Positions 27,828-50,456 of a stretch of 64,000 bases of DNA are shown piece after piece. The position numbers and the translations under genes were made by a program. Within the stretch, counting starts at the first letter, position 1. Every line of letters starts with the position of its first letter. The notes beneath the pieces are model-generated. The model saw only the letters and a list, made by a program, of their open reading frames with translations, was not told the origin of the DNA and made no database searches. Source of the DNA: a virus; the IMG/VR virus record IMGVR_UViG_3300017956_000007, positions 20,466 to 84,465 of that record; one strand, given 5' to 3'.

Positions 27828-28468
27828 GATAATTCCTTGACCTCATCACAAATTCCATATTTCAATGCCTCATTTGAAGATAACCAAACATCGTGCGGAG
27901 GCAATAAAAATTTACGTATTTCATCATCATCAATGCCTGTACACTTTCTATAATGATTTAACATTCTTTCGGTTGTTAAATCATATTCTTTTTGTACAGC
28001 AAAAAGTTCATGCTCTTTACCAAAAGAACCCCAAGAATATTGATGAGATAAAATACTTGTATTCGGTGTTAATAGTCGTCTTCCTTTTTTCCCAGCCATA
28101 AAAATTGAAAGTGCGGCACTTCCTATAATACCAAGACCGACTGTATGAATAGGAATAGAAGACCCTCTCATAACGTCAATCAAAGCAAAACCAGCCGTCA
28201 TATCTCCTCCATGAGAATTTATGCACAATGTCAAAAATTCTGGTCTTGACGTTTTTTTCATATTATTGAGTAATACCCATTCAATCGCATGTAAAACCGA
28301 ACCATTATAGATATCATCAAATAAAAAATAATATCCTCTATTTTCCAAAGATGCGCCATCATCCTCAACATTTTCTGATGGTGCATTTGCTATAAATTTC
28401 TCAGCAACTAACGTTGCAAATTCTGGATTTACTAATGATTGTGCTATCTTATCTTCATTTATTTTCAT
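27824..28468 (-). CDS. ClpP-type serine protease
   Basis: This 214-residue protein keeps the ClpP fold and triad. Ser117 lies in GLGIIGSAALSIFMAG, His142 in TSILSHQYSWGSFG, and Asp193 in PHDVWLSSNEALKYGICDE. The oxyanion and substrate strand INSHGGDMTAGFALID at about 83-98 is also intact. Size equals that of bacterial ClpP (about 200 residues). ClpP forms a barrel peptidase that works with an AAA+ unfoldase; none is seen in this window, so it may use a host ClpX/ClpA, or act alone as a prohead-like protease. The gene sits with gp33 and gp59 and overlaps the glycosyltransferase gene upstream by 14 bases. Confidence 0.88.
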   Translation of the reverse strand: MKINEDKIAQSLVNPEFATLVAEKFIANAPSENVEDDGASLENRGYYFLFDDIYNGSVLHAIEWVLLNNMKKTSRPEFLTLCINSHGGDMTAGFALIDVMRGSSIPIHTVGLGIIGSAALSIFMAGKKGRRLLTPNTSILSHQYSWGSFGKEHELFAVQKEYDLTTERMLNHYRKCTGIDDDEIRKFLLPPHDVWLSSNEALKYGICDEVKELS

Positions 28469-31400
28469 ATTTTACCATTTGAATAATTTTATCAATTCCA
28501 TCAAAAACCATCTCAGTAGAGATATTTTTTGTACACTCAAACATTCTATCGGTTCCTTTATGATCCGGACACCAAAGCCAATCGCCTGGATCGAACTTAT
28601 GTCTATTATAGCAACTATTGCAAGTTTTGTCATTAAAAATCCTAACACATTTTGTGGAAAATTCTGAATTAGGATTACTAAACCCAGAAATTAATAAAAC
28701 GTGCTTATTCATAGACCATGCTAACCATGACAATCCTGACCCTAATCCTATGAAAAACTCAGATTTATTTATAGTCGCAATTGTCTGATTTAAAGTTCTA
28801 TTATGTCTCGGTATAATACCATCTGGACAATAGTTAAAATATTCACCCTGTCCAAAAGAAGGATGTTTGTCAATACAAACCACATCATACCCCTTAGTCT
28901 TTACATATTCAACAACTTTATTCCAAGCACCAGGATTATTCCAATATTTTGCCTGAGCAGTTGATTGCGTAGCAATTGCAACATAAGGTTTATTCAATTC
29001 GTATTCTTTTTCGTACACTGTAATTTTTGATGGTTTTTCCTTCCAATCCTTAAATCCTAAAATACTTGCGCACAATGTTTGCAATGGAACATCTTTACAA
29101 TCGACTGGAGACAAATCACATTTTTCAAAAAATCCTATTCTATATTGATGGTCAAAATCTTTAAATCCTGAATTAGGTTTTTCAAATTTTATTTCAGGAT
29201 ATTCATTTTCGAATAATTCATTGAAAAAAGTGCTACATATGACTTTACATTTATGTTTTTTTCTAAATGCTTCGACCGGTTCCATCCAAGCAATATTATC
29301 GCCTAATGCGGAAGAATCTAGCCAAATGAAAACTTTTTTATTTTCCATTTTCATATCATACACATGCACTAATTCTTCAGTTTTTTCATCAAAAATTTCA
29401 ATTTTCCAAGGTATAAAATAAGATAATGTTGATGCGGCCCAACAATTGTTTCCTATTTTAGTTTGAAAATGTATATAATCAGTTTCTGAATCTTTGAAAT
29501 TAATTTTAAAGTTTTTATCTACATTACCTTTTATAGACACATAAGGATTCGGGTTAACTGTTATATTATAATAAGATTTTTTTCTATCGTGTCTGTATTT
29601 ACTAAAATCATGTTCACTAGCATTTTTCAAATCATTTTGATATATGCTTATTAATCTTTCTCCCATATCCAATGGTATAGTTTGTTTCAATTCTTTTGCT
29701 CGGTAATAATATTTTTCTAAATTTAAAAAAATGTTATCCCAATCTCTTTCCATAGCAAATTTTCTAGCATCTTTTGATGACTGGTCTAAATCATTCAAAT
29801 GATGTAAAATACCCTCAACTATTGTATCCACACTTCTATCGCATTGATAAAAACCTGGTATTTTCATTTCATCTTGTAATGTTCCAACAACTGGCAATCC
29901 ACATGCCATTCCTTCTAGTACACCTAAACAAGGTTGTCCAGTTTCCATTGATGCCGGATGTACAATAATATCTTGTTCGGATAAAATATCTCTTAGATCT
30001 TTTTTGAAAACATTGCCTAATAGATTTATTTCTATGTCTTTTTTGCAATCGTTGTATATCTGATAAAAAACTTTATTGTAATCGTCATGTATAGAATCCG
30101 CTCCGACTATTGTTATAGGAAAGCCTAATTTATGGGCAGCCAAAATCGCTAAATGAAATCCTTTTCTATCGTCTCCCCCTCCAACACAAACCAATCTATT
30201 GCTTCTTTTTTTAGTATAATTGGGATAATAGAAATTAGTATCAACTCCATGATGTAAATGAAATAATTTATCCTGAGCATCAAAATATGATATGAATTTA
30301 TTGATAGGGGTTAAACTTAGAACAGAATTTTCAATTGTAGATTTTATTTGGTTATATGAATAACTATATTTTTCCTGTAATCCTACCCACGCATCATGAA
30401 CTGTATGAATAAACGGCACAAATTTATGTTTTAGTGAATCATTAAAATTAACCATATGATTATGAAAAACATCGTAATTTTCCAATTCCGTTTGTGTAAT
30501 TTCACTTAACCACATCAATTTTACGTTATGTCCTCTTCTCTTACCGGCATTGATATATTGACCAACAACTTCCTCAACACCTCCATAACCTTTAGGAGGT
30601 ATTTCTATACCGCATCCTGGATTTATTTGAATTATATTTAATTTTTCAAAATTATTATCATGAATTATACGTTCAAAGTTTTCGACAGGTAAATTTTCAA
30701 TTTCGCTTTTTTTCTCAGATTCTGGTTCACTAATTACCTCAACTATTTTCTTAATTTCTCCGTTTTTCGATCTTGTAATTAATGTGAACCTATTGTCTTT
30801 ATTATACCAGTTAAAATGATAATTTAAATCCGTCATCATACTAATAACATCAGATATTATGTCAATACCTGTTCTATTATTTTTCATTAAATGAGAATTA
30901 TCACAAAAAATTACAATCTCACAGTTAAAACTCAAGTTATTTTCAATAGATTCTATAAATTTTGATATTTCTTCTACAGTATCTTCAAGATTTATTTTAA
31001 TGAAAAAATAATCAACGTTTTTAACTCCATCGAAAAAAACATTGTGATCAAAAAATAATTTTTTCAATTTTTCTTTTTTAAGAATATCATATTTAAAATT
31101 TAAGAAACTAATATTTTTAGCTTGAATTTCATGATTTAGATATGATATGTAAGTTGATTCCGCTGAATCATATATATCATCAAAATATTTTAAATTTCTA
31201 GGATATTCTAAAATAAAATTTTTTCTTCTTTCTTTAGCATCAATTGCTAATTGTGCCTCTCCTCTTGTATTCCAATTTCTGTAATTCTCGGAATCATTAT
31301 GGTCTCTTGCCAAATAAGTAGTTCTTGGAATTGTAATCCATTTACCTCTCTCTTCCATCATTAATAACCACTGTCCATCATTAGAAGAACATGCTTCTCC

Positions 31401-31958
31401 GTCTTTATGTACAGGAAATTTAATGCCTGGCAAATTTCTAAAAATTCTTAAATATCCAAAAATATTTGTTCTATTTGGCCATAATTTTTCAAATCCTTCA
31501 AGAAAAGAATCATTATCGGTTGTCATAAAAACGTTATCTTTGAAATTCGACAAAAAATCCTGATTAGATTTTATAGTAAAATTATCATAGTATTTGTTCG
31601 CATTAAAATGCATCAAAACACTCTCTGGAAACAAATTAAAATAATAATTTATACGTTTTAACGTATTAGGCAATATAAAATCATCAGAATCAATGTGACA
31701 AACTATATCTCCAGTAGCGTGTGTCTGGGGATTCCACCATATTTCTTTTTTATATTTTGGTTGTATAATTTTTATTCTATCATCTCTGAGACTGATATCA
31801 TTGATAATTTCCAAAGTTTTATCATTAGAAAAATCATCTGATATTAACCATTCCCAATTATCATAATTTTGACATAATATAGATTCTGCGGTTTCTCGTA
31901 TATATTTTTCAGCATTAAAACATGAAGTTATTAATGACAATTTCAATTCATCATACAT
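28455..31958 (-). CDS. Three-domain glycosyltransferase: GT2 + GT4 + autotransporter-type heptosyltransferase
   Basis: The start chosen is ATG at 31958 with AAAAGG 5 bases upstream; a TTG one codon earlier is less likely. Residues 1-250 are a GT2 domain (LITSCFNAEKYI; acidic HIDSDDF at about 88-94). Residues about 440-760 are GT4 (GYGGVEEVVGQY; CVGGGDDRKGFHLA; HPASMETGQPCLGVLEGMACG). Residues about 800-1168 match the autotransporter strand-loop-strand heptosyltransferases (TibC/Aah): SSALGDNIAWMEPVEAFRKK, LGSGLSWLAWS, and four cysteines at about 1113, 1116, 1130 and 1142 (CNSC, then C, then C) like the iron finger of that family. These use ADP-heptose to modify serines of surface proteins. 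The fusion with two further transferases is unusual. Confidence 0.85.
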   Translation of the reverse strand: MYDELKLSLITSCFNAEKYIRETAESILCQNYDNWEWLISDDFSNDKTLEIINDISLRDDRIKIIQPKYKKEIWWNPQTHATGDIVCHIDSDDFILPNTLKRINYYFNLFPESVLMHFNANKYYDNFTIKSNQDFLSNFKDNVFMTTDNDSFLEGFEKLWPNRTNIFGYLRIFRNLPGIKFPVHKDGEACSSNDGQWLLMMEERGKWITIPRTTYLARDHNDSENYRNWNTRGEAQLAIDAKERRKNFILEYPRNLKYFDDIYDSAESTYISYLNHEIQAKNISFLNFKYDILKKEKLKKLFFDHNVFFDGVKNVDYFFIKINLEDTVEEISKFIESIENNLSFNCEIVIFCDNSHLMKNNRTGIDIISDVISMMTDLNYHFNWYNKDNRFTLITRSKNGEIKKIVEVISEPESEKKSEIENLPVENFERIIHDNNFEKLNIIQINPGCGIEIPPKGYGGVEEVVGQYINAGKRRGHNVKLMWLSEITQTELENYDVFHNHMVNFNDSLKHKFVPFIHTVHDAWVGLQEKYSYSYNQIKSTIENSVLSLTPINKFISYFDAQDKLFHLHHGVDTNFYYPNYTKKRSNRLVCVGGGDDRKGFHLAILAAHKLGFPITIVGADSIHDDYNKVFYQIYNDCKKDIEINLLGNVFKKDLRDILSEQDIIVHPASMETGQPCLGVLEGMACGLPVVGTLQDEMKIPGFYQCDRSVDTIVEGILHHLNDLDQSSKDARKFAMERDWDNIFLNLEKYYYRAKELKQTIPLDMGERLISIYQNDLKNASEHDFSKYRHDRKKSYYNITVNPNPYVSIKGNVDKNFKINFKDSETDYIHFQTKIGNNCWAASTLSYFIPWKIEIFDEKTEELVHVYDMKMENKKVFIWLDSSALGDNIAWMEPVEAFRKKHKCKVICSTFFNELFENEYPEIKFEKPNSGFKDFDHQYRIGFFEKCDLSPVDCKDVPLQTLCASILGFKDWKEKPSKITVYEKEYELNKPYVAIATQSTAQAKYWNNPGAWNKVVEYVKTKGYDVVCIDKHPSFGQGEYFNYCPDGIIPRHNRTLNQTIATINKSEFFIGLGSGLSWLAWSMNKHVLLISGFSNPNSEFSTKCVRIFNDKTCNSCYNRHKFDPGDWLWCPDHKGTDRMFECTKNISTEMVFDGIDKIIQMVKYENK

Positions 31959-31961
31959 CAA

Positions 31962-32969
31962 TTACCTTTTAAAATAAATTGTAGTTGTTTTTTTAATATT
32001 ATTGACTAATGTTTGATCATTTAAATCAAAAGTTTTTATCAACTCATCATTCATAAAAATTTCTATCAATTGACCTTTATTAAATTTAACTAGATTATAA
32101 AAACCTTTCATAAAAAATGAATCCGATACTATTTGATTATCTACAACTATTTTCATTTTCATATCAATAAAATGATTTAAATGAAATATATAATCTTCTT
32201 CATTATCACCTATATAAAGTGCCACCCAAGGTTTTGTTTCTTCTATGTGCATCCTATCTTGTTCAAATTGTATTCGATTCAAATTAGGAACAAAATCGAT
32301 TAATTCCACATTTGAATTTTTTTCATCATTGTATTTTGTCAATCCCAAAACATAAGCAAAAAACTCCTCACCTGGTAAGAATTGATACTTCAAAGTTATT
32401 TCTTTTTGAACTTCTAAATCCAAATACTTCATAAAGCGTTCATACATATAATCTACGTTTCCGGACATCAATCTTGTAGTAACTTGCATTTTGCCGTGAG
32501 TGTCGGAATTGTCTTCACTGGACCAATAATAAAAAACACCATCTAATTTTTTAGATAATATCTTATATTCATTCATAATCAATTCATGTGGACTTTTAAT
32601 AAGACCATCATAATCCATGATATGAATAATTTTTTTTCTTAAAATTTTTGCATAATTAATACCCAAAGTTAATAATCTGTAAACCGCAAAAGTTGTATTG
32701 TGACCATGAAATTGTTTTGTTGATAAATCAAACCCATCTGTGTAATACGTTATATAACCTAAATATTCTGGATCTTTTAACACAATATTGTCTTTATCAT
32801 AAACAAAATAATCAACTTTTTCCTGAATTTCTTTTGACACCGGTGTATGGGTAGTTAATATTATTTCATAATTAAAATATTTTATATTATTAATCAACTC
32901 TAAACAACATTTTATTCTCTCAGGAGTTGAAAGATGGGCATGAATTAATACAATAGAATCAGAGGACAT
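31962..32969 (-). CDS. Glycosyltransferase-like protein (DxD-type)
   Basis: The start at 32969 is chosen because GGAG lies 9 bases upstream; an ATG at 32984 has no usable spacing from its purine run. The N-terminal 150 residues look like a GT-A fold: VLIHAHLSTPERIKCCLELI, then YEIILTTHTP, and IIHIMDYDGLI, where the DxD sits. A C-terminal beta-rich segment (about 250-335) resembles the sugar-binding or strand-loop extension of its neighbours. It sits between two large glycosyltransferase genes, with an 11-base overlap upstream and only a few bases downstream, so it is likely part of the same glycan pathway. Donor and acceptor are unknown. Confidence 0.65.
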   Translation of the reverse strand: MSSDSIVLIHAHLSTPERIKCCLELINNIKYFNYEIILTTHTPVSKEIQEKVDYFVYDKDNIVLKDPEYLGYITYYTDGFDLSTKQFHGHNTTFAVYRLLTLGINYAKILRKKIIHIMDYDGLIKSPHELIMNEYKILSKKLDGVFYYWSSEDNSDTHGKMQVTTRLMSGNVDYMYERFMKYLDLEVQKEITLKYQFLPGEEFFAYVLGLTKYNDEKNSNVELIDFVPNLNRIQFEQDRMHIEETKPWVALYIGDNEEDYIFHLNHFIDMKMKIVVDNQIVSDSFFMKGFYNLVKFNKGQLIEIFMNDELIKTFDLNDQTLVNNIKKTTTIYFKR

Positions 32970-35634
32970 ATGTGATGTCTCCATCCTTTAATAATGAAGT
33001 TCCATCTTTAAATGATTTATCTAGATATGAATTACCGGAACATTGTATTGAGTATGGGTTTTTTGTGATACCTCCAACCATTTCATTTAATACATTATTA
33101 TTTAACCACAAATCATATGTGTCCCATCCTGTTTTTTCAAATTTATTTAAAAAATATTCTCTACAATTTGCAGGAATTAAATAACAATGCGCTTCTGACA
33201 TTCTGTTTGTCACATCAAAATATTTATTTCGTTTTTGATAATGCCATTCAACAATCCTTTTACCAAAATTCATATATTTTAAATCAAATTCCATTAAATC
33301 ATCAAATCTATCAGTTATTTCTTTATAAACTTCAAAAATTGGTTTAATAAAAATTGCATCACATTCACAAAATAAAACCGCATCTACCTCATCATTCAAA
33401 TGCTCTAACATTGCCTTATAATGTGCCAAATAATTACCGTAATGGGCAGGAGTTAATTTATAATGTCCGGGTTCCATTTGAACATCATCTGGTCTGGCAC
33501 AACTCTCTTTAGGAGGCATGTCAGAATATTTTTTGTTAATCATTTGAACATATTTCCATCCAGAATATTCAGCTAATTTTGTCAAATGTTCTATCGATTT
33601 TTTTTCACGTTCACCTTCAATGTCAACTAACATGTGTACTATTTTAATTTTAGGTACTCTAGATGCCCATAGGTTTCCTAATCCTCCATCAACAATTTCT
33701 TTATCAAATTTAACATCATATCCTAATTTTTTTAACCTATCAATCAATTTACTGGATCTTAAAATTCTAGATTCTAAAGAATTATCATTATTGAAAAAAT
33801 CATGCACTTCCATTGTGATTTTTCGTATGCGATGCTTCAACATATGATCGGAAATGGTAGGCATAATATTCCATTCTGCCCCTTCACAATCTAATTTTAA
33901 CACATCTATTCTATCAACATCATTATTTTTCATGAATGTGTCAAAATTTATAGTTCTAACTTCTTCAATTTTTTTCTTTCCTAAAGTAGTTGGATTTTCT
34001 TCAGAAGTATTAAAACTATCATAAAAAGTATTCACTGCCGAAGAACCTAAGATTTTAAATTCTGAAGTTCCATTTTTATCGGACAATGCCATGTTAAATT
34101 TCTTGACTTGATCATAACCTTTTAAATTTTCACACAATATTTCAAATGTTTTTTTTGCCGGCTCAAATGTGAAAATTTTTGAGGCTCCTTTACTCAAACA
34201 ATATAGGTCAAAAAGACCATAATGACCACCAACATCTAAAACAACATCACCTTGCAATATATTTACGTATTTGTAACATTCTTGATAAAAAACTTCATAT
34301 AATGTAAACCAAGATGCAGGATCATCTTGAATACCCTTTATATTTACATCAACATCATTGATCTTAATATCATCAATTTGATTATCAAAATCAAATGTTT
34401 TCTCATATAAAATATGATGCTCATCCATTAAATTGCCATCAGTTAAACTTGAAAAATAGTCACCAGGAGCATCATAAATTTTTAGATTAATTCCTCCCAG
34501 AATTTTTTGAGAACAATTAGGTTGAACCCAAAGATTAGGACTAAAAATTTTTGATCTGTAAACTAATAAATTAGTTTTTGTATCAAACAAACAAACCAAT
34601 TTATTTTCAAGACATTTAAAATAATCTCCAGTGGAGATTGATATTTTAGTATCATCTTCTAATTTACATGAAATAAAGTTTTCGGTGATGTTCAATTTTC
34701 TCAAAATTTTTAATTTATTTACCTCAAAATTATCATTAGTCAAATATGTTACCTTATCATCTAACTTATTCAAATAAGAATCTAACTTATATACAATAGT
34801 AGGCATTTTCCAACTTAATGCTTCTTTTATCGCTAAAGGATTTGTTTCCTTATCATGTACATTGCCCCTAGATGTGAATAAAAATAAATCCATACAGGAA
34901 TAAAAATTATCAACATCGGATCTTTCACCCCATATTTTACAATTATCAGGAATGTCACTCATCAATGGTTCCCAATATGATTTAAAATTAGGTGCCATAT
35001 TTCCGACAAAATGAAATTCTATAGGAAATTGTCTTAGACTTTTTGCATATTCTATAATTTCTGCCTGATTTTTTCTAGGTGTAAATAGACCTACATTTAA
35101 AACATGATACTTTTCAGGATCTAAATTTAATTGCTTCAAACCTTCTATTCTATCACGTTTATCTTTTATAGGAACTGGATATTCTATTACAGAACTTGGA
35201 ATTTTTAAGGAAGAAAAATTATGTACCTGATTGTCACTACAAAATAAAAATCTATCAGGCAAAAATACTTTATTTGAAGGTTCGAAAGATGAATCGTGAG
35301 ATGTTTCGAAAATTAAATATTTTCTTTCTGTATTGTATATTTTTTTAGAAATATCTTGACTCATGAAAAATTCAGGCATTTCCTCAAAATGAATAATATC
35401 AGGTTGAATTTTTTCTATAATTTGAAAAATTTCTTCCTTTTCCTCTCCAAGAGTAAAAACTTTATCATTTAATAAATTAATTATTTTGTTTTTTTGTACT
35501 CTGTAAATTCCGTAGTCGTTATATTCTATGACATAAATATTATAAATATTTTTCAAAAATTCTATTTTTTTTAATAGATACTGAGGAGCTCCTCCAGTTG
35601 ACAAATGAGGAGTAATGTACAATATATTTTTCAT
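32959..35634 (-). CDS. Three-domain protein: GT4-like transferase + FkbM methyltransferase + transferase-like domain
   Basis: The 891 residues form three blocks. Residues 1-310 are GT4-like (TPHLSTGGAPQYLLKKIEFL; VGLFTPRKNQAEII at about 181-194; a C-terminal E-rich motif at KETNPLAIKEALSWKMP). Residues about 460-620 are an FkbM-type SAM methyltransferase (VVLDVGGHYGLFDLY at 464-478; FTFEPAKKTFEIL; DVLKLDCEGAEWNI at 577-590). Residues about 660-891 have an acidic metal-site-like motif (AVLFCECDAIFIKP) and look like a second sugar transferase. FkbM enzymes often O-methylate sugars, so the protein may add and cap a methylated sugar. Ribosome binding site AAAGGTGG lies just before the ATG. It is first in a minus-strand operon from the divergent region. 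Confidence 0.82.
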   Translation of the reverse strand: MKNILYITPHLSTGGAPQYLLKKIEFLKNIYNIYVIEYNDYGIYRVQKNKIINLLNDKVFTLGEEKEEIFQIIEKIQPDIIHFEEMPEFFMSQDISKKIYNTERKYLIFETSHDSSFEPSNKVFLPDRFLFCSDNQVHNFSSLKIPSSVIEYPVPIKDKRDRIEGLKQLNLDPEKYHVLNVGLFTPRKNQAEIIEYAKSLRQFPIEFHFVGNMAPNFKSYWEPLMSDIPDNCKIWGERSDVDNFYSCMDLFLFTSRGNVHDKETNPLAIKEALSWKMPTIVYKLDSYLNKLDDKVTYLTNDNFEVNKLKILRKLNITENFISCKLEDDTKISISTGDYFKCLENKLVCLFDTKTNLLVYRSKIFSPNLWVQPNCSQKILGGINLKIYDAPGDYFSSLTDGNLMDEHHILYEKTFDFDNQIDDIKINDVDVNIKGIQDDPASWFTLYEVFYQECYKYVNILQGDVVLDVGGHYGLFDLYCLSKGASKIFTFEPAKKTFEILCENLKGYDQVKKFNMALSDKNGTSEFKILGSSAVNTFYDSFNTSEENPTTLGKKKIEEVRTINFDTFMKNNDVDRIDVLKLDCEGAEWNIMPTISDHMLKHRIRKITMEVHDFFNNDNSLESRILRSSKLIDRLKKLGYDVKFDKEIVDGGLGNLWASRVPKIKIVHMLVDIEGEREKKSIEHLTKLAEYSGWKYVQMINKKYSDMPPKESCARPDDVQMEPGHYKLTPAHYGNYLAHYKAMLEHLNDEVDAVLFCECDAIFIKPIFEVYKEITDRFDDLMEFDLKYMNFGKRIVEWHYQKRNKYFDVTNRMSEAHCYLIPANCREYFLNKFEKTGWDTYDLWLNNNVLNEMVGGITKNPYSIQCSGNSYLDKSFKDGTSLLKDGDITYVL
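32979..32982 (-). promoter_or_regulatory. Ribosome binding site deciding the start of the DxD glycosyltransferase
   Basis: GGAG on the minus strand stands 9 bases before the ATG at 32969. The alternative ATG at 32984 directly abuts its only AAAGG, leaving no spacing, so the shorter protein is preferred. Confidence 0.45.
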
Positions 35635-35715: not shown

Positions 35716-35720
35716 TTTTG

Positions 35721-37019
35721 ATGCCGAGACCTTTAGTATATAAAGAAAATACTAGTGGAACTGAATTTGGTCTATATGAACTTACCGATAGCCAATTAGA
35801 ACTACTATCATATCTAGTTAGAGCTAGATATGCGGAAAAATTAGCAGATATCAGTAGTACAACCAGTGGAATAAGAGGACAAATCTATCTCAAAACATTT
35901 TCAAATTCGGCCCCTAGACGAGGAACAACATCGGACTATTTTTCGGGGAGTTTTAGAGACTCTAGAAGAGATTATGCTTTATCAGGAAATTTGTCTGCCT
36001 CTGACGATAGACTTGGGTCTGATTTATTTAGTGGACCATCGTCAGCAGCACAACTAACTGTAGAAGATGTGCCTGGTGCAACATTAACCGATAATAAACT
36101 GATTTCTAATTTTGGTCCTGCACCCTCTGCTGTACCAAGTTATACTACTGGAGGATACACATTTACACCAAGAAGTTATGACAGTTATATGTTATATCAA
36201 AGAAGCGCACAAGAATTAACGCCTTCTGATGCAGATACAAATGAAAATGGGTTTTTAATTTATACATCAAGAAGTCTTAAACCTGCAGGGAAAGATAGAT
36301 CTGTCATAACAGAATTACTCTCAGATTGTTACACCCAAATGAAAACGGGAGATGGAGTTGGAACATATTATGTTGATAAGAGTACAGCAACAAAACCTGG
36401 GGGACAAACAAATGGAACCTTCGTAAACATGGGAACATTTTTTATCGATACAAGATCACAAGTCAGTAGTGTAACAACAACTTCCATGACTATTGATGCG
36501 GATGGATACCCTAGAGGTAAAAACTATGGTTCTGTTGTAGAACAGCACAATTTACCTAATATGTCATATGCTTGGGGTGTTGTTGTTACATATAATTATT
36601 GGGTAAAAACAGAAGATACTGCTTTTGATGTTTCGGGGGGAACAAAACAATTTAGTAATTTAATGTTTTTAAAAAATGATGGTCATAAATTATTAAGAAA
36701 AGATAGAACTTCAACTTCTGCCCCAACAAGTACTTCTGATTTGAAGACTAAATATGGAGTATTTATGGATATGATAGATAAAGTAATAATTCCTCAATTT
36801 GCTAACGGATCTGATTTACCAACTTATTACAAAACAAATAATAATCCTCCATCCCCTGCTTCGAAAATAAGAGGAACTATAGAAGATACATATTATGCAG
36901 GAACAAATACTTATTTGTACAGATCAACTTCAGGATTAACATATAAGAGACTTGATATTCCAAAAATAGACAACAACAATGTCTTTACAACAACTATGTA
37001 TTGGTATATTAATAATTAA
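35721..37019 (+). CDS. Fibre-like virion structural protein (module copy 1)
   Basis: From ATG 35721 the protein has 432 residues. The N-terminus (MPRPLVYKE, then LTDSQLELLSYLVRARYAEKL at about 20-40) matches, from memory, the capsid- or baseplate-proximal segment of fibre-like structural proteins in cyanophages. The middle is Ser/Gly-rich, and about residues 190-240 contain DGVGTYYVDKS and GTFVNMGTFFID. The same blocks occur in the gene at 37826-38857, so the two are paralogues. It is followed by an acidic partner gene. The host-recognition role is inferred. Confidence 0.75.
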   Translation: MPRPLVYKENTSGTEFGLYELTDSQLELLSYLVRARYAEKLADISSTTSGIRGQIYLKTFSNSAPRRGTTSDYFSGSFRDSRRDYALSGNLSASDDRLGSDLFSGPSSAAQLTVEDVPGATLTDNKLISNFGPAPSAVPSYTTGGYTFTPRSYDSYMLYQRSAQELTPSDADTNENGFLIYTSRSLKPAGKDRSVITELLSDCYTQMKTGDGVGTYYVDKSTATKPGGQTNGTFVNMGTFFIDTRSQVSSVTTTSMTIDADGYPRGKNYGSVVEQHNLPNMSYAWGVVVTYNYWVKTEDTAFDVSGGTKQFSNLMFLKNDGHKLLRKDRTSTSAPTSTSDLKTKYGVFMDMIDKVIIPQFANGSDLPTYYKTNNNPPSPASKIRGTIEDTYYAGTNTYLYRSTSGLTYKRLDIPKIDNNNVFTTTMYWYINN

Positions 37020-37037
37020 ATTATTTAAGGTAAAATA

Positions 37038-37823
37038 ATGGAAAACACTGATAATGTTGTAATATCAACAATTGAAACTTCAAACGATGAAATTATTGCA
37101 AATAATGAATCCGTAAATGTGTATATTCAAGAGAGTGATAGTGCTAGTGATAGTACGATAGAAAATCCTGAATATTTCTCAAATGAAACTGATGAATCCT
37201 CCATAACTGATATTTCATCAGAAACAGAATTAGAAAGTGATGAATCGGTAAATGAATTAGATGAGGAAATTGAAGAGGAAGAAATAGAATTATTTACAAT
37301 AAATGGCGTTACGTTAACTAACAAAATGCATGATCCTTGTCCAGAATTTAGACCGATATATGCACATTTTAATGATGAAAAAAATACGGTGGTTAGAATA
37401 TTTTTCATTAGTCTAGATGAAAATGAAAAAGGAGAAACATATTGGTCAAAGTTGCAAAATGGTTTATTTTCTTATCAAAAACCCATACCCGAAATACAGA
37501 AACTTTCAATATTTTTCAGTGAACAAGACTTAATTGACAATCACAATAAACTAATATATGATGATTTAGAATTTCAAAGAGAAGTTTTTAATTACATGGA
37601 ATGGAAAGCTACAGGATTATCAGGATCCGAAGAAAAAATTACTTTAAATAACATTAAACAATTAAGTTCAGAAGCACTTTTTAAAATAAAATTAGAATTA
37701 TTTGAAGAAGCCGTCATTCAAGAATGCGAAAGTGTTGAATTAAGAGCCAATTTGAGAAAATCAAATAATTTAATAGAATTGTTTTATCATTATCAAACTA
37801 TTTTAAATCAAAGTAAAGAATAA
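37038..37823 (+). CDS. Acidic partner protein of fibre gene (module copy 1)
   Basis: Of the 261 residues, the first 85 are a strongly acidic Ser/Glu/Asp linker (ETELESDESVNELDEEIEEEE). The rest is more ordered. Near 180-196 it has FQREVFNYMEWKATGL, and at the end LRANLRKSNNLIELFYHYQT. These two blocks are shared with the 176-residue protein at 38869-39399, so they define one family. I do not recognise it from a database family. Strict pairing with a fibre gene suggests an adaptor, chaperone or minor fibre protein. RBS AAGG is visible before the ATG. Confidence 0.68.
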   Translation: MENTDNVVISTIETSNDEIIANNESVNVYIQESDSASDSTIENPEYFSNETDESSITDISSETELESDESVNELDEEIEEEEIELFTINGVTLTNKMHDPCPEFRPIYAHFNDEKNTVVRIFFISLDENEKGETYWSKLQNGLFSYQKPIPEIQKLSIFFSEQDLIDNHNKLIYDDLEFQREVFNYMEWKATGLSGSEEKITLNNIKQLSSEALFKIKLELFEEAVIQECESVELRANLRKSNNLIELFYHYQTILNQSKE

Positions 37824-37825
37824 AA

Positions 37826-38857
37826 ATGGCAACAAATAGACCTTTAAGATTTGATGAAACGGTCAAATCATTTAGACAAATGAGTGATGCAGAATTAGAT
37901 ATTTTGAGTTATGTTGTAAGAAAAAAATATGCACAATTATTGAGTAGCGGTACCGCTACCATTGGAGGAAAAATTTCTCCGGGCACATCTGCTTCTAATT
38001 ATTCCTCATTAGGATCAGTAACAGATACAAAAACCTTACAATATACTGCTACTAACGCAGACAGTCCAACTGGTGGTGCAGATAACATATTTCCAACAAC
38101 ATTAAATTCATCATATCATCAAGAAACTGAAACGATTTATAATTATAGACAATATATACCTTCAATCAATTTATCCTCATCAACACTTAATTCTTACAGT
38201 TATCTTGTTTATGATCAAAATACAAAAACTTTTAAAATTGAAGGTGACATTTCCAATATATTCGACACTATCGTAAGTGATTGTGTGAACAAAATACATG
38301 ATCCTAACAGTGATGGTGTCGGATCATATCATTTTGGTTTATCCTCTCCAACGACAGGAACATACGTAAATATGGGAATGATATATCAAGATACGACATA
38401 TTGGAATAGTACAGTACAATTTAATCATTATATTAAAACGGCTGCCGATAATGAAAACGATATACTAAACGATGCCAGTGCATATAAATATATATCAAGA
38501 TACATAGGAATTGTTGATGGCAGTGTTAAAATATCAGAAATACCAATAAATGATATCACAGAAAATATAGTAGTTGATATACTAGAAAAAATATTGGAAA
38601 AAAGATTTCCAAAATACACATTAACAAGAGTAGGAAGCACAGATTCAACAACAACTGCTACCACAACAATGGCAGGCTACACCTCAAATAATTTTGGTTT
38701 TTTACATGAAAGATTTGTATTTTCTTCATATACCGTAGTATCCACTTCTGGTGTATCAGGAGGAACTTACACAGCAAACTATCAACCAGATAACAATAGT
38801 TATAGATATAATGTATGGGCATTGACTGCCAATGGTTATAATACAACTGATTTATAA
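37826..38857 (+). CDS. Fibre-like virion structural protein (module copy 2)
   Basis: This 343-residue paralogue of the preceding fibre-like protein begins with MATNRPLRFDETVKSFRQMS and AELDILSYVVRKKYAQLL. Further on it has SDGVGSYHFGLSSPTTGTYV, then NMGMIYQD, matching copy 1. The C-terminal region is Thr/Ser-rich and ends with YRYNVWALTANGYNTTDL. It starts 2 bases after the preceding stop codon and is followed after 11 bases by its own acidic partner. The two fibre copies differ mainly in their middle and C-terminal parts, which would allow different ligands. Confidence 0.73.
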   Translation: MATNRPLRFDETVKSFRQMSDAELDILSYVVRKKYAQLLSSGTATIGGKISPGTSASNYSSLGSVTDTKTLQYTATNADSPTGGADNIFPTTLNSSYHQETETIYNYRQYIPSINLSSSTLNSYSYLVYDQNTKTFKIEGDISNIFDTIVSDCVNKIHDPNSDGVGSYHFGLSSPTTGTYVNMGMIYQDTTYWNSTVQFNHYIKTAADNENDILNDASAYKYISRYIGIVDGSVKISEIPINDITENIVVDILEKILEKRFPKYTLTRVGSTDSTTTATTTMAGYTSNNFGFLHERFVFSSYTVVSTSGVSGGTYTANYQPDNNSYRYNVWALTANGYNTTDL

Positions 38858-38868
38858 AAAGGAACATT

Positions 38869-39399
38869 ATGTTAATTGATGTCGATAATATTGAAATATT
38901 AAATGCTACATTTCCTAATTTGACCTCTAGAAATTTAATAATGGTTGATTATTCCGACATAAATGGCGAAAGAAAAAGTATGGTCATAGGTTCTGATGAT
39001 GATTCGGATTTTGGTTTAAAAGTTTTTGATAAATTTAATCTATCTACGATTGAAAACAATACAAAATTACTACACGAAGAAAACAAAAAGCAGGCTAAAA
39101 ATTTTTTACAATTTTTAGAATGGAAAGAAAGTGGATTAATTAAAACTATAGATGATGATGAAGAAAAAATAATTGAAGAAAAAATTTCAGAAATACAGCC
39201 TCAGGAAATAACTTTAGATTTTTTAGAGAATTTGGACAATGAAAATTTATTCAAATTAAAGTTGAGTATTTTTGACATCGAAGAATTTCAAGATATTGAT
39301 GATAGAGAATTGAGATCACAAGTTAGAAAATCAAAAAATTTACCAGAATTAATGCATTATTATCACATCTTTAAAATTAATCAAAATTCAAATAATTAG
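38869..39399 (+). CDS. Acidic partner protein of fibre gene (module copy 2)
   Basis: This 176-residue protein shares the C-terminal blocks of the partner protein in copy 1: AKNFLQFLEWKESGL at about 78-92 and LRSQVRKSKNLPELMHYYH near the end. It lacks the long acidic N-terminal linker but has an acidic middle (DDDEEKIIEEKISE). A good ribosome binding site (AAAAGGAAC) precedes the ATG. Its last 23 bases overlap the convergent glycosyltransferase gene on the other strand, a tight junction without room for a terminator. Confidence 0.66.
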   Translation: MLIDVDNIEILNATFPNLTSRNLIMVDYSDINGERKSMVIGSDDDSDFGLKVFDKFNLSTIENNTKLLHEENKKQAKNFLQFLEWKESGLIKTIDDDEEKIIEEKISEIQPQEITLDFLENLDNENLFKLKLSIFDIEEFQDIDDRELRSQVRKSKNLPELMHYYHIFKINQNSNN

Positions 39400-47479: not shown

Positions 47480-47989
47480 ATGAACAATGATTTGAAATTT
47501 TACTTTGATAAAGTATGGAAACCAAACTATAATAAATTTATTTATAGTGGTTGGAATTTAATAAAAAAAATAAATGATGATGAAACCATTTTAGACGTAG
47601 GTTGCGGTTTTAATTTATTTAAACCATATTTTAAAGATAGGTTATATGGTATTGATATAGTAAATAAATTTGCCGATGAAATAGTTTCTATTGAAGATTT
47701 TGTAACCAATAAAACCTGGAATGTAGGATTTTGTTTAGGTAGTTTAAATTTTGGAACAAATGATCAAGTGTATGAACAGGTAAAAAAAGTATGTAAATTA
47801 ACAGAAAGAATTTACTTCAGACAAAATCCTGGTGTAGCTGATCATAAATATGAAGGTGTCGAAAAAATAAAATTCTTCCCTTGGACCATTAACTTAAATT
47901 ATGAATGGGCTGAAAAAAATAATTTTACAGTAAAGGAAATAAAATGGGATAAAGGTAATAGAATTTATTCCGAGTGGATTAAAAATTAA
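47480..47989 (+). CDS. SAM-dependent methyltransferase (class I)
   Basis: The 169 residues have a classic motif I, TILDVGCGFNLF at about 36-47, followed by the acidic strand LYGIDI that binds the SAM ribose. The remaining part is compatible with a small Rossmann methyltransferase but carries no substrate signature. It is the first gene of the only plus-strand cassette between 39 and 64 kb and precedes the TctA-like permease by 20 bases. Its 5' end is 10 bases from the divergent radical SAM start. No clear ribosome binding site is visible. Confidence 0.78.
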   Translation: MNNDLKFYFDKVWKPNYNKFIYSGWNLIKKINDDETILDVGCGFNLFKPYFKDRLYGIDIVNKFADEIVSIEDFVTNKTWNVGFCLGSLNFGTNDQVYEQVKKVCKLTERIYFRQNPGVADHKYEGVEKIKFFPWTINLNYEWAEKNNFTVKEIKWDKGNRIYSEWIKN

Positions 47990-48009
47990 CAGAAGATAAG
48001 AATTTAATT

Positions 48010-49440
48010 ATGCTTTTTATTATATTATTGGGTACATTATATGGTTTTATATTTGGTTTAATTCCAGTAGCAGGAGCGACAACTGCCCTCATAACAGTTT
48101 TTTCTTTTTATCAATATTTTCAATACGAACCCTACCTTTTAGTTGCATTCACAACCTCTATTGTGGTTTCATCTTCTATAGGTGATAGTTTTTCAAGTAT
48201 TATGTTGAACATACCTGGTGCCGGAGGAAGTGCAGCAACAATGATTGATGGTTTTCCTATGGCACAAAGAAATGAAGGAGCAAGAGCATTAGGTGCAGCA
48301 ATATGTGTTTCAACAGTTAACGGTTTACTCTGGGGCATCATCGTTTTTCTTTTTTTACCACATTATACTGGATTTGTGTTAAATTTTGGTATACCTGAAA
48401 TGTTTGTATTTCTTATTCTAGCATTTTTTTCTGTCATTTTTATAAATAACCAACATTATTTTCGTGGATTTTTAGCACTCATCATTGGCATATTTTTAGG
48501 AATGATTGGTCAAAATCCAATCACAGGAGATGAAAGATTTACTCTTGATATTCAATACCTAGGTGATGGTATTCAACTTGTCCCTATCATGGCAGGAATT
48601 TTAGCATTTCCTGAATTGCTTCATGCATATCTAAATGATAAAAATAAATCATCAGATATTTTTGACATCAAAAAACAAATAGTACAAGGTTTTAAAGACA
48701 GCTGGATATACAAATGGGATGGACTTCGAGGAGGATTTATCGGTGCTGTTATCGGTGCTATACCTGGAATTGGAGGAAATGTTGCCGATTGGTTGGCATA
48801 TGGACAAACGATTGCCTTGAATAAAAAAGAAACATTTGGAAACGGAAATGTAAGAGGCGTAGTAGGGTGTGAAGGAGCAAATAATGCACAAAAAGCGACC
48901 AGTTATATTCCTACAATACTGTTTGGAATTCCGGGTGCACCATTTGAAATTATCATAATTAGTTTGTTTATGCTTGTAGGTTTAGAACTAGGTTCGCCTG
49001 ATCTATTACTTGACATAACTTTTTTTAACTATATGACAGAAAGTTATATATTGAGTTTAATTTTAACATTTTTTATTGCTGTCATTTTTGTAAGATATGC
49101 AGTAAACATTGTTAAAATACCTTTCAAATATTTCTTCTGGTTCATTATGTTGTTATTGATTTGGGTGTCTATACAATATACAAAAGGTATTGAAGATTAT
49201 CTAATATTCGGTTTCTTTTGTATATTCGGTCTAATACTAAAACGATTTCATTTCAATCGTGCCGCACTTATACTCGGATTTATTTTAGCGGAAAGATTAG
49301 AAAGTTTGTATATTCAATTCAATGCTCTATATTCTTATGATATTTTATTACAAAGACCAATTAGTTTAGGAATCTTATCTCTGACATTTATATTGGTAGG
49401 TATTGGTTTAACAACAAAAACAAGGATTAAATACTCATGA
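48010..49440 (+). CDS. tctA: TctA-family permease of tripartite tricarboxylate transporter
   Basis: The 476-residue membrane protein has the TctA signature: GLIPVAGATTALI near residue 15, then SSSIGDSFSSIMLNIPGAGG at about 55-74, MIDGFPMAQR, and in the middle FIGAVIGAIPGIGGNVADWL and ILFGIPGAPFEI. TctA normally has about 500 residues and 10-12 membrane helices. Here the first helix seems short by about 20 residues. It uses ion gradients to import carboxylates delivered by TctC. The next gene encodes such a binding protein (ATGA overlap), while the small TctB subunit is not seen. Such a gene in a phage is striking. Confidence 0.9.
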   Translation: MLFIILLGTLYGFIFGLIPVAGATTALITVFSFYQYFQYEPYLLVAFTTSIVVSSSIGDSFSSIMLNIPGAGGSAATMIDGFPMAQRNEGARALGAAICVSTVNGLLWGIIVFLFLPHYTGFVLNFGIPEMFVFLILAFFSVIFINNQHYFRGFLALIIGIFLGMIGQNPITGDERFTLDIQYLGDGIQLVPIMAGILAFPELLHAYLNDKNKSSDIFDIKKQIVQGFKDSWIYKWDGLRGGFIGAVIGAIPGIGGNVADWLAYGQTIALNKKETFGNGNVRGVVGCEGANNAQKATSYIPTILFGIPGAPFEIIIISLFMLVGLELGSPDLLLDITFFNYMTESYILSLILTFFIAVIFVRYAVNIVKIPFKYFFWFIMLLLIWVSIQYTKGIEDYLIFGFFCIFGLILKRFHFNRAALILGFILAERLESLYIQFNALYSYDILLQRPISLGILSLTFILVGIGLTTKTRIKYS

Positions 49441-50456
49441 AAAAAATTATTTTATTTATAACATTAATGTTGATTGCAACTGCAACTTTTGCCGATTACA
49501 CATTTATTGTACCTCAAAAACCAGGAGGAGGTACTGATCTTTGGGCAAGAACAATTGCACAAGAATTGGAAAAGAAATTGGGTGAAAAAATTAAAATTAA
49601 TAACTTACCTGGAATTAATGATGTTCCAGGGTTTAATAAATTTCACAATGAATTGCAGTATGATGATAAAAATGTCATGGTTGCGCATGGAGGTAATGCG
49701 GAAAGTTTTTTAGTTCAAAATGTTGATTATGATTATTTTGATTATGAACCCATAGCACTGCAAAATCTTACCATTATGGTAGGTAAAAGAAATGATCATA
49801 ATCATCTTGAAAATGTAAAATTTGCCGCAGGTTCTGGAATGAACCCAGATGCAATGGCAATTACAATGTTAATATGTGGACCGAAAAATTCATTATTAGA
49901 ATATAAACAGTGCTTTGATCAAAAATTTATTTATGTAAAAGGAATGTCGGGCGGAGAACGAAGATTAGCATATATGCGAGGAGAATTAAACGTAACTAGA
50001 GAAAATCCTCTTGCATATAAAAAACATGCAGAAAAAATTAAAGAAAATGTCAACTGGTTTTCTCATGGTGTAATGAATATAGATACGCTAGAAATTATCA
50101 ATGATGCAAATTTTCCAAATTTATCTTTTGTTGAGGTATATAAAAATTTATGGAAAGAAGAACCGAAAGGAGATTTTTATCATGCCTATATATTATCTAA
50201 AAGTTATAGAGATGTATTGCAAAAAAGTTTATGGGTAAGAAAAGATAATTCAAATGTGAATAAATTAATCACAGCTTTCAATGATATGATAAATGACGAT
50301 GAGGCAATGAATAGAATATATGAAAAAACAGGTAAATACGATTTCATTGTCGGTAAAAAAATTGAACCACTTTTAGTTTCTTTACAAACATTGAAAGATG
50401 AAAATAATTTGATGAATTTGAAATGGATTATAAAAAATATGTTACACGTTAATTAA
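49437..50456 (+). CDS. tctC: TctC-type periplasmic binding protein of tripartite tricarboxylate transporter
   Basis: The 339 residues start with a signal peptide (MKKIILFITLMLIATATFA, likely cut before DYTF) and continue with FIVPQKPGGGTDLWARTIA, the family hallmark (P..PGG..D...R). KIKINNLPGI and VAHGG match the ligand-binding region. It would capture a carboxylate in the periplasm and pass it to the TctA permease encoded just upstream with a 4-base overlap. The substrate cannot be read from sequence. Two cysteines (CGPKNS, QCFDQ) lie near residues 142 and 155. The stop overlaps the convergent radical SAM gene by 15 bases. Confidence 0.87.
   Translation: MKKIILFITLMLIATATFADYTFIVPQKPGGGTDLWARTIAQELEKKLGEKIKINNLPGINDVPGFNKFHNELQYDDKNVMVAHGGNAESFLVQNVDYDYFDYEPIALQNLTIMVGKRNDHNHLENVKFAAGSGMNPDAMAITMLICGPKNSLLEYKQCFDQKFIYVKGMSGGERRLAYMRGELNVTRENPLAYKKHAEKIKENVNWFSHGVMNIDTLEIINDANFPNLSFVEVYKNLWKEEPKGDFYHAYILSKSYRDVLQKSLWVRKDNSNVNKLITAFNDMINDDEAMNRIYEKTGKYDFIVGKKIEPLLVSLQTLKDENNLMNLKWIIKNMLHVN

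Follow-up and report, generated by a model that had tools for sequence, protein, structure and literature searches.

The DNA analysed here (the window; 64,000 bases, corresponding to bases 20466-84465 of a virus record of 84,465 bases) carries intact, adjacent genes for a TctA membrane permease and a TctC/Bug-type periplasmic binding protein. The latter has a signal peptide legible in its sequence and a TctC fold predicted by modelling, and TctB was not detectable. In the tripartite tricarboxylate transporter (TTT) family, TctC captures a periplasmic solute and TctA is believed to move that solute inward by means of an ion gradient. We favour the interpretation that the cassette encodes a TTT-type secondary importer that depends on a binding protein, is maintained by the phage and has been reduced to two components. 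Because TctB was detected neither as a separate nor as a fused protein, we term the system TTT-derived and not a complete tripartite one.

The cassette and its phage carrier

The cassette consists of three plus-strand genes in close succession, whose exact positions are 47480..47989 for a probable class I SAM-dependent methyltransferase (169 aa), 48010..49440 for TctA (476 aa) and 49437..50456 for TctC with its signal peptide (339 aa). The TctA stop and the TctC start share four bases (ATGA; 49437..49440, plus strand), and translational coupling of the two genes through this overlap is expected. An earlier note on this DNA had described the cassette as the only plus-strand one within a minus-strand island. 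This is right for positions 39377-63993, where the cassette genes are the sole plus-strand genes and the remainder forms the island; a separate plus-strand block (35718-39399) finishes just ahead of it. Between 43019 and 61249 the island has an unusual density of radical SAM proteins, at least 11 different ones passing the cut-off and some of them containing SPASM. Glycosyltransferase/FkbM methyltransferase genes lie at 28455-35634 of the window.

The carrier of the cassette is a T4-like phage. Genes for the T4-type baseplate wedge, tail-tube cap, hub/lysozyme, head closure and DNA end protector are present in the window's record; gp23 was not found in this record, which is incomplete. The gp23 capsid gene was present in at least nine TctA-bearing records, including records of 383, 344, 300, 230, 213 and 192 kb, most viral TctA-bearing records being fragments. 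The 21.4 kb around the cassette recur in two other IMG/VR contigs at 99.99% identity, with 1-2 mismatches. The cassette is therefore not an assembly artefact, and the joining of contigs, which the earlier note had named as a ground for rejecting the cassette, was ruled out. Bacterial contamination was also ruled out, both for the window and for those relatives that carry virion genes.

The first gene of the cassette probably encodes a methyltransferase, an assignment that is not proven. Its product and the viral relatives have the class I motif DVGCGxNxFK in common (ILDVGCGFNLFK; 22-row alignment). The protein gave no Pfam match of its own, the relative in one viral locus (L030) matched Methyltransf_23 (PF13489) below the cut-off, and a PDB search with the methyltransferase returned nothing. 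Neighbourhood clustering placed methyltransferase relatives near TctA, on either strand, in 31/35 viral loci. In another locus, a cytochrome P450 gene (L018:8287-9471, minus strand; PF00067, E=9.7e-23, C-terminal part matched) adjoins the viral methyltransferase-TctA pair.

The permease and the binding protein

The window TctA matched PF01970 over the full profile (E=7.9e-92; positions 1-423 of 423), and its AF2 model (pLDDT 86.3) is nearly all helical. A fold search against the PDB gave no significant match for this protein, so its mechanism is taken solely from its sequence family. In an alignment with fused TctAB proteins, the phage TctA stops just before the fused TctB part of its bacterial relatives.

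The window TctC gave no PF03401 match and lies below the Pfam TctC cut-off. Despite this, the identification of the 49437-50456 product as a TctC/Bug protein is secure, because phmmer, tblastn, profile-profile and fold matches agree. The protein matched BugD by phmmer (E=1.5e-4) and TctC genes of bacterial plasmids by tblastn (best E 2e-13); several of these plasmid genes adjoin the nearest bacterial TctA. Viral and bacterial TctC matched with 100% probability (E=2.9e-43) in a profile-profile comparison in which the window protein was part of one of the two profiles only. The 17 best PDB matches of the AlphaFold model (pLDDT 91.8) were all TctC/Bug-type; malate-bound MatC came first, and ligand-bound MatC and BugD were the best fold matches.

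The Sec signal peptide of TctC (MKKIILFITLMLIATATFA; 49437..49493, plus strand), read from the sequence, ends in TATFA ahead of DYTF, and the alignment revealed similar signals across viral TctC. The segment P26-Q-K-P-G-G-G-T33 (49512..49535, plus strand), whose core residues are kept in viral and bacterial homologues, is presumably the first ligand-cleft loop, a role that we assign from what is known of Bug proteins. Alignment revealed a second conserved region, G169...R176...R181-G-E-L...R188-E189 (49941..50003, plus strand). Phages and bacteria have P26, G30, G32, P58, G59, G169, R176, G182 and E183 in common. In contrast, phages invariably have H84, N87, N110, R188, E189, R258 and D259, whereas the bacterial set differs at these positions; at the viral-specific R188-E189, bacteria have Y/F-Q. 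The viral-fixed residues suggest a ligand, or a docking partner or surface, unlike that of the bacterial relatives. Two further grounds for doubt raised in the earlier note were a lost TctC ligand pocket and an interrupted TctA in related phages. Neither was found: the cleft motifs of TctC are conserved, and the TctA reading frame is uninterrupted in each of the best 79 relatives (of at least 506).

A viral family without detectable TctB

Scanning IMG/VR with an alignment query yielded 52 loci, the others being 39-64% identical to the window TctA. With a viral profile at least 506 relatives were obtained, the best 79 loci at 45% identity or more to the window TctA. Among these best 79 loci, TctC lies directly 3' of TctA on the same strand in 70/70 of those with more than 1.5 kb downstream. 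The search of viral contigs for adjacent TctA and TctC that the earlier note had proposed thus found the pair widely. The order TctC-TctA occurs in two relatives (L056, L057), beside genes that appear baseplate-like by inspection. One viral TctA (L228) has two TctC-type genes downstream.

In a quick, unrooted tree with several long branches, built from 30 viral TctA and 42 from outside the viral clade, a single branch (support 100) set the viral sequences apart from the rest. Most viral TctA are 45-64% identical to the window TctA, and the closest cellular TctA found are 35% identical or less. The cellular sample comprised 80 genome loci, 297 Pelagibacterales genomes and 398 genomes of the phylum; for the phylum, the result means that nothing closer was sampled among the matches listed to E 1e-74. 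A single-sequence search of genome contigs gave nothing, but the alignment query did give cellular matches.

The dN/dS ratios were 0.02-0.12 for TctA and 0.02-0.15 for TctC, indicating that both are maintained as working proteins. The distances of TctA and TctC were correlated with r=0.90 over 378 pairs; those of TctA and the methyltransferase were more loosely correlated (r=0.55). TctA and TctC are co-inherited and evolve in step under strong purifying selection. With their single viral clade and hundreds of loci, they are thus a metabolic gene pair maintained in phage genomes under selection, as expected of auxiliary metabolic genes. In some loci, other metabolic genes lie near the phage TctA/TctC: a tryptophan-halogenase family protein (L047:6552-7625; PF04820, E=4.3e-58) has relatives in L044, L045 and L050, and an AMP-binding enzyme is encoded near the pair in the same four loci, which could represent a small biosynthetic island.

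For the detection of TctB, we built a profile from fused and separate bacterial TctB sequences. It was positive in 79/80 bacterial loci and in 0/143 viral loci, some of which overlap, and the earlier note was thus right to describe the pair as lacking TctB. The profile also matched 0/31 viral records, with 7/7 bacterial control genomes positive, and found nothing in the 22 large viral records; PF07331 matched 0/48 viral records. TctB has been reported to be poorly conserved (PMC5812351), and a highly diverged copy elsewhere in the genome could therefore escape both profiles. The gaps between TctA and TctC in L019-L025, L034 and L074 hide no TctB; they hold other proteins instead. In L019-L023, a signal-peptide-bearing, porin-like outer-membrane barrel (Porin_4/OMP_b-brl; L019:4129-4686, L020:11427-11984, L023:11440-12030) is encoded between TctA and TctC, as would suit an operon for uptake through an envelope with two membranes. 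Sequence inspection indicated a 2OG-oxygenase-like gene in the gap of L024 and L025 and a rubredoxin-like gene in that of L034; a PDB search with the oxygenase-like neighbour returned nothing.

In the nearest bacterial operons, TctA mostly carries TctB as a C-terminal fusion and is therefore about 600-760 aa long; a few have TctB as a separate following gene. TctB fusion is the rule in the nearest bacterial TTT subfamily as sampled, and TctB loss is the rule in phages. The fusion was the usual form of this subfamily in several phyla (sampled bacterial loci L081-L160); a 2018 review describes TctAB fusion as rare and the function of TctB as unknown (PMC5812351). The nearest matches of the phage proteins were fused TctAB and TctC of Alphaproteobacteria (e.g. 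Thalassospira marina, Rhizobium rosettiformans, Shinella), with 31-34% identity for TctA and 24-28% for TctC, several of them located in the same operons. In these operons TctC is followed by the TctA-TctB fusion (640-676 aa), whereas in the phage TctA is followed by TctC and there is no TctB domain. The bacterial relatives adjoin tricarballylate genes or genes for 4-oxalomesaconate tautomerase, which makes a tricarboxylate a reasonable first guess for the substrate of the bacterial systems only.

The type TTT system, TctCBA of Salmonella (TC 2.A.80), combines a TctA family permease with a TctC-type binding protein as the phage does, but it has a separate TctB and the gene order tctCBA (PMC5812351), and conventional TctA in Salmonella and E. 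coli records is only about 28% identical. TctA matches in GenBank phage records (25-28%) appear to be bacterial DNA entered as 'phage', and the window TctC had no match among the GenBank phage records searched. The PBP2_Bug_TTT proteins of uncultured Caudovirales phages (BFVD) also have the TctC/Bug fold; being only 13-16% identical to the window TctC, they represent a different TctC lineage.

The earlier note had left open whether such a pair was already described in phages. SUP05 viral contigs have been reported to carry tctA as a putative AMG, with the remark 'protein domain hit only' (PMC4164917), and 'tricarboxylate transport' genes near norB/nirK have been reported on the myovirus scaffold St16_omz_317 (PMC8115048). 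TTT-type genes are there located in viral, partly T4-like, contigs, as in our case. In the parts of these two papers available to us they are mentioned in passing, and TctC pairing, TctB loss or phylogeny are not given. We found no description of the TctA/TctC phage pair, its viral clade or the missing TctB in the literature searched, subscription papers and preprints aside.

Proposed mechanism and alternatives

In the mechanism that we propose, TctC would be exported to the periplasm, where it would capture a small, probably carboxylate, solute and pass it on to TctA; this multi-helix permease would be expected to act as an ion-coupled symporter. No TctB would be made by the phage. Uptake of a carbon or nitrogen metabolite would thereby be raised during infection, for phage production. 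Transport activity, its direction, its independence from TctB and the benefit to the phage are what we infer for this pair. Regarding the uptake of citrate or other carboxylates suggested in the earlier note, our results support a phage-borne carboxylate-type uptake pair and its lack of TctB, with citrate or another carboxylate as a candidate substrate.

Alternatively, the phage TctA and TctC might use TctB made by the host, which we consider unlikely. TctB is part of the bacterial TTT systems as described (PMC5812351), and TctA genes occur in Pelagibacterales, which are possible hosts, both as fusions and at a length of about 500 aa. However, viral TctA is at most 35% identical to any cellular TctA found, and since TctB is mostly part of the TctA polypeptide in the nearest cellular relatives, there would be no free matching subunit to borrow. 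Moreover, TctB is missing throughout a deep clade, one that probably has several hosts. Of the two options offered in the earlier note, borrowing TctB from the host is thus now less likely than doing without it.

We give still less credence to a replacement of TctB by another small phage membrane protein. The best example is a conserved protein of 117-118 aa with four hydrophobic segments by eye, which appears to be an internally duplicated two-helix unit and has no Pfam match. It is present in 20 of the viral loci examined and directly adjoins TctC in several of them (L054:12614-12970, L075:11062-11418, L076:11069-11422, L077:10354-10710). Yet most loci, the window cassette among them, lack it, and in L026 (17553-17906) and L063 (17521-17877) it is located about 5 kb from TctC. 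A comparison with the TctB profile gave an hhalign probability of 0.4%, and we rejected this four-helix protein as a TctB homologue for lack of profile similarity.

It is very improbable that the pair has ceased to transport, with TctC serving for sensing or scavenging, or that its function is non-nutritional. In favour of this reading, orphan TctC are numerous in some bacteria with non-transport roles suggested (PMC5812351), the viral TctC has its specific fixed residues, and the islands around the pair contain many radical SAM, glycosyltransferase, methyltransferase and oxygenase-like genes. Against it, TctA invariably accompanies TctC in the loci that allow a check, and the two are similarly constrained; a sensor or scavenger would need no permease.

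A two-part importer remains our preferred reading of the cassette. More tentatively, and with somewhat less than even confidence, we propose that this TctB-free importer forms a phage lineage of its own, present in hundreds of viral contigs including those of large T4-like phages, with a TctC cleft remodelled for its own ligand, and that an importer of the TTT type can do without TctB. Many large T4-like phages carry the pair, and its consistent lack of TctB suggests that these viruses have evolved their own, simplified form of uptake. A natural TctA/TctC clade without TctB makes the role of TctB, whose function is described as unknown (PMC5812351), directly testable. The pair also extends the known metabolic genes of phages by a widespread solute importer specific to phages, which would mean that phage production in many hosts is limited by metabolites of the carboxylate type.
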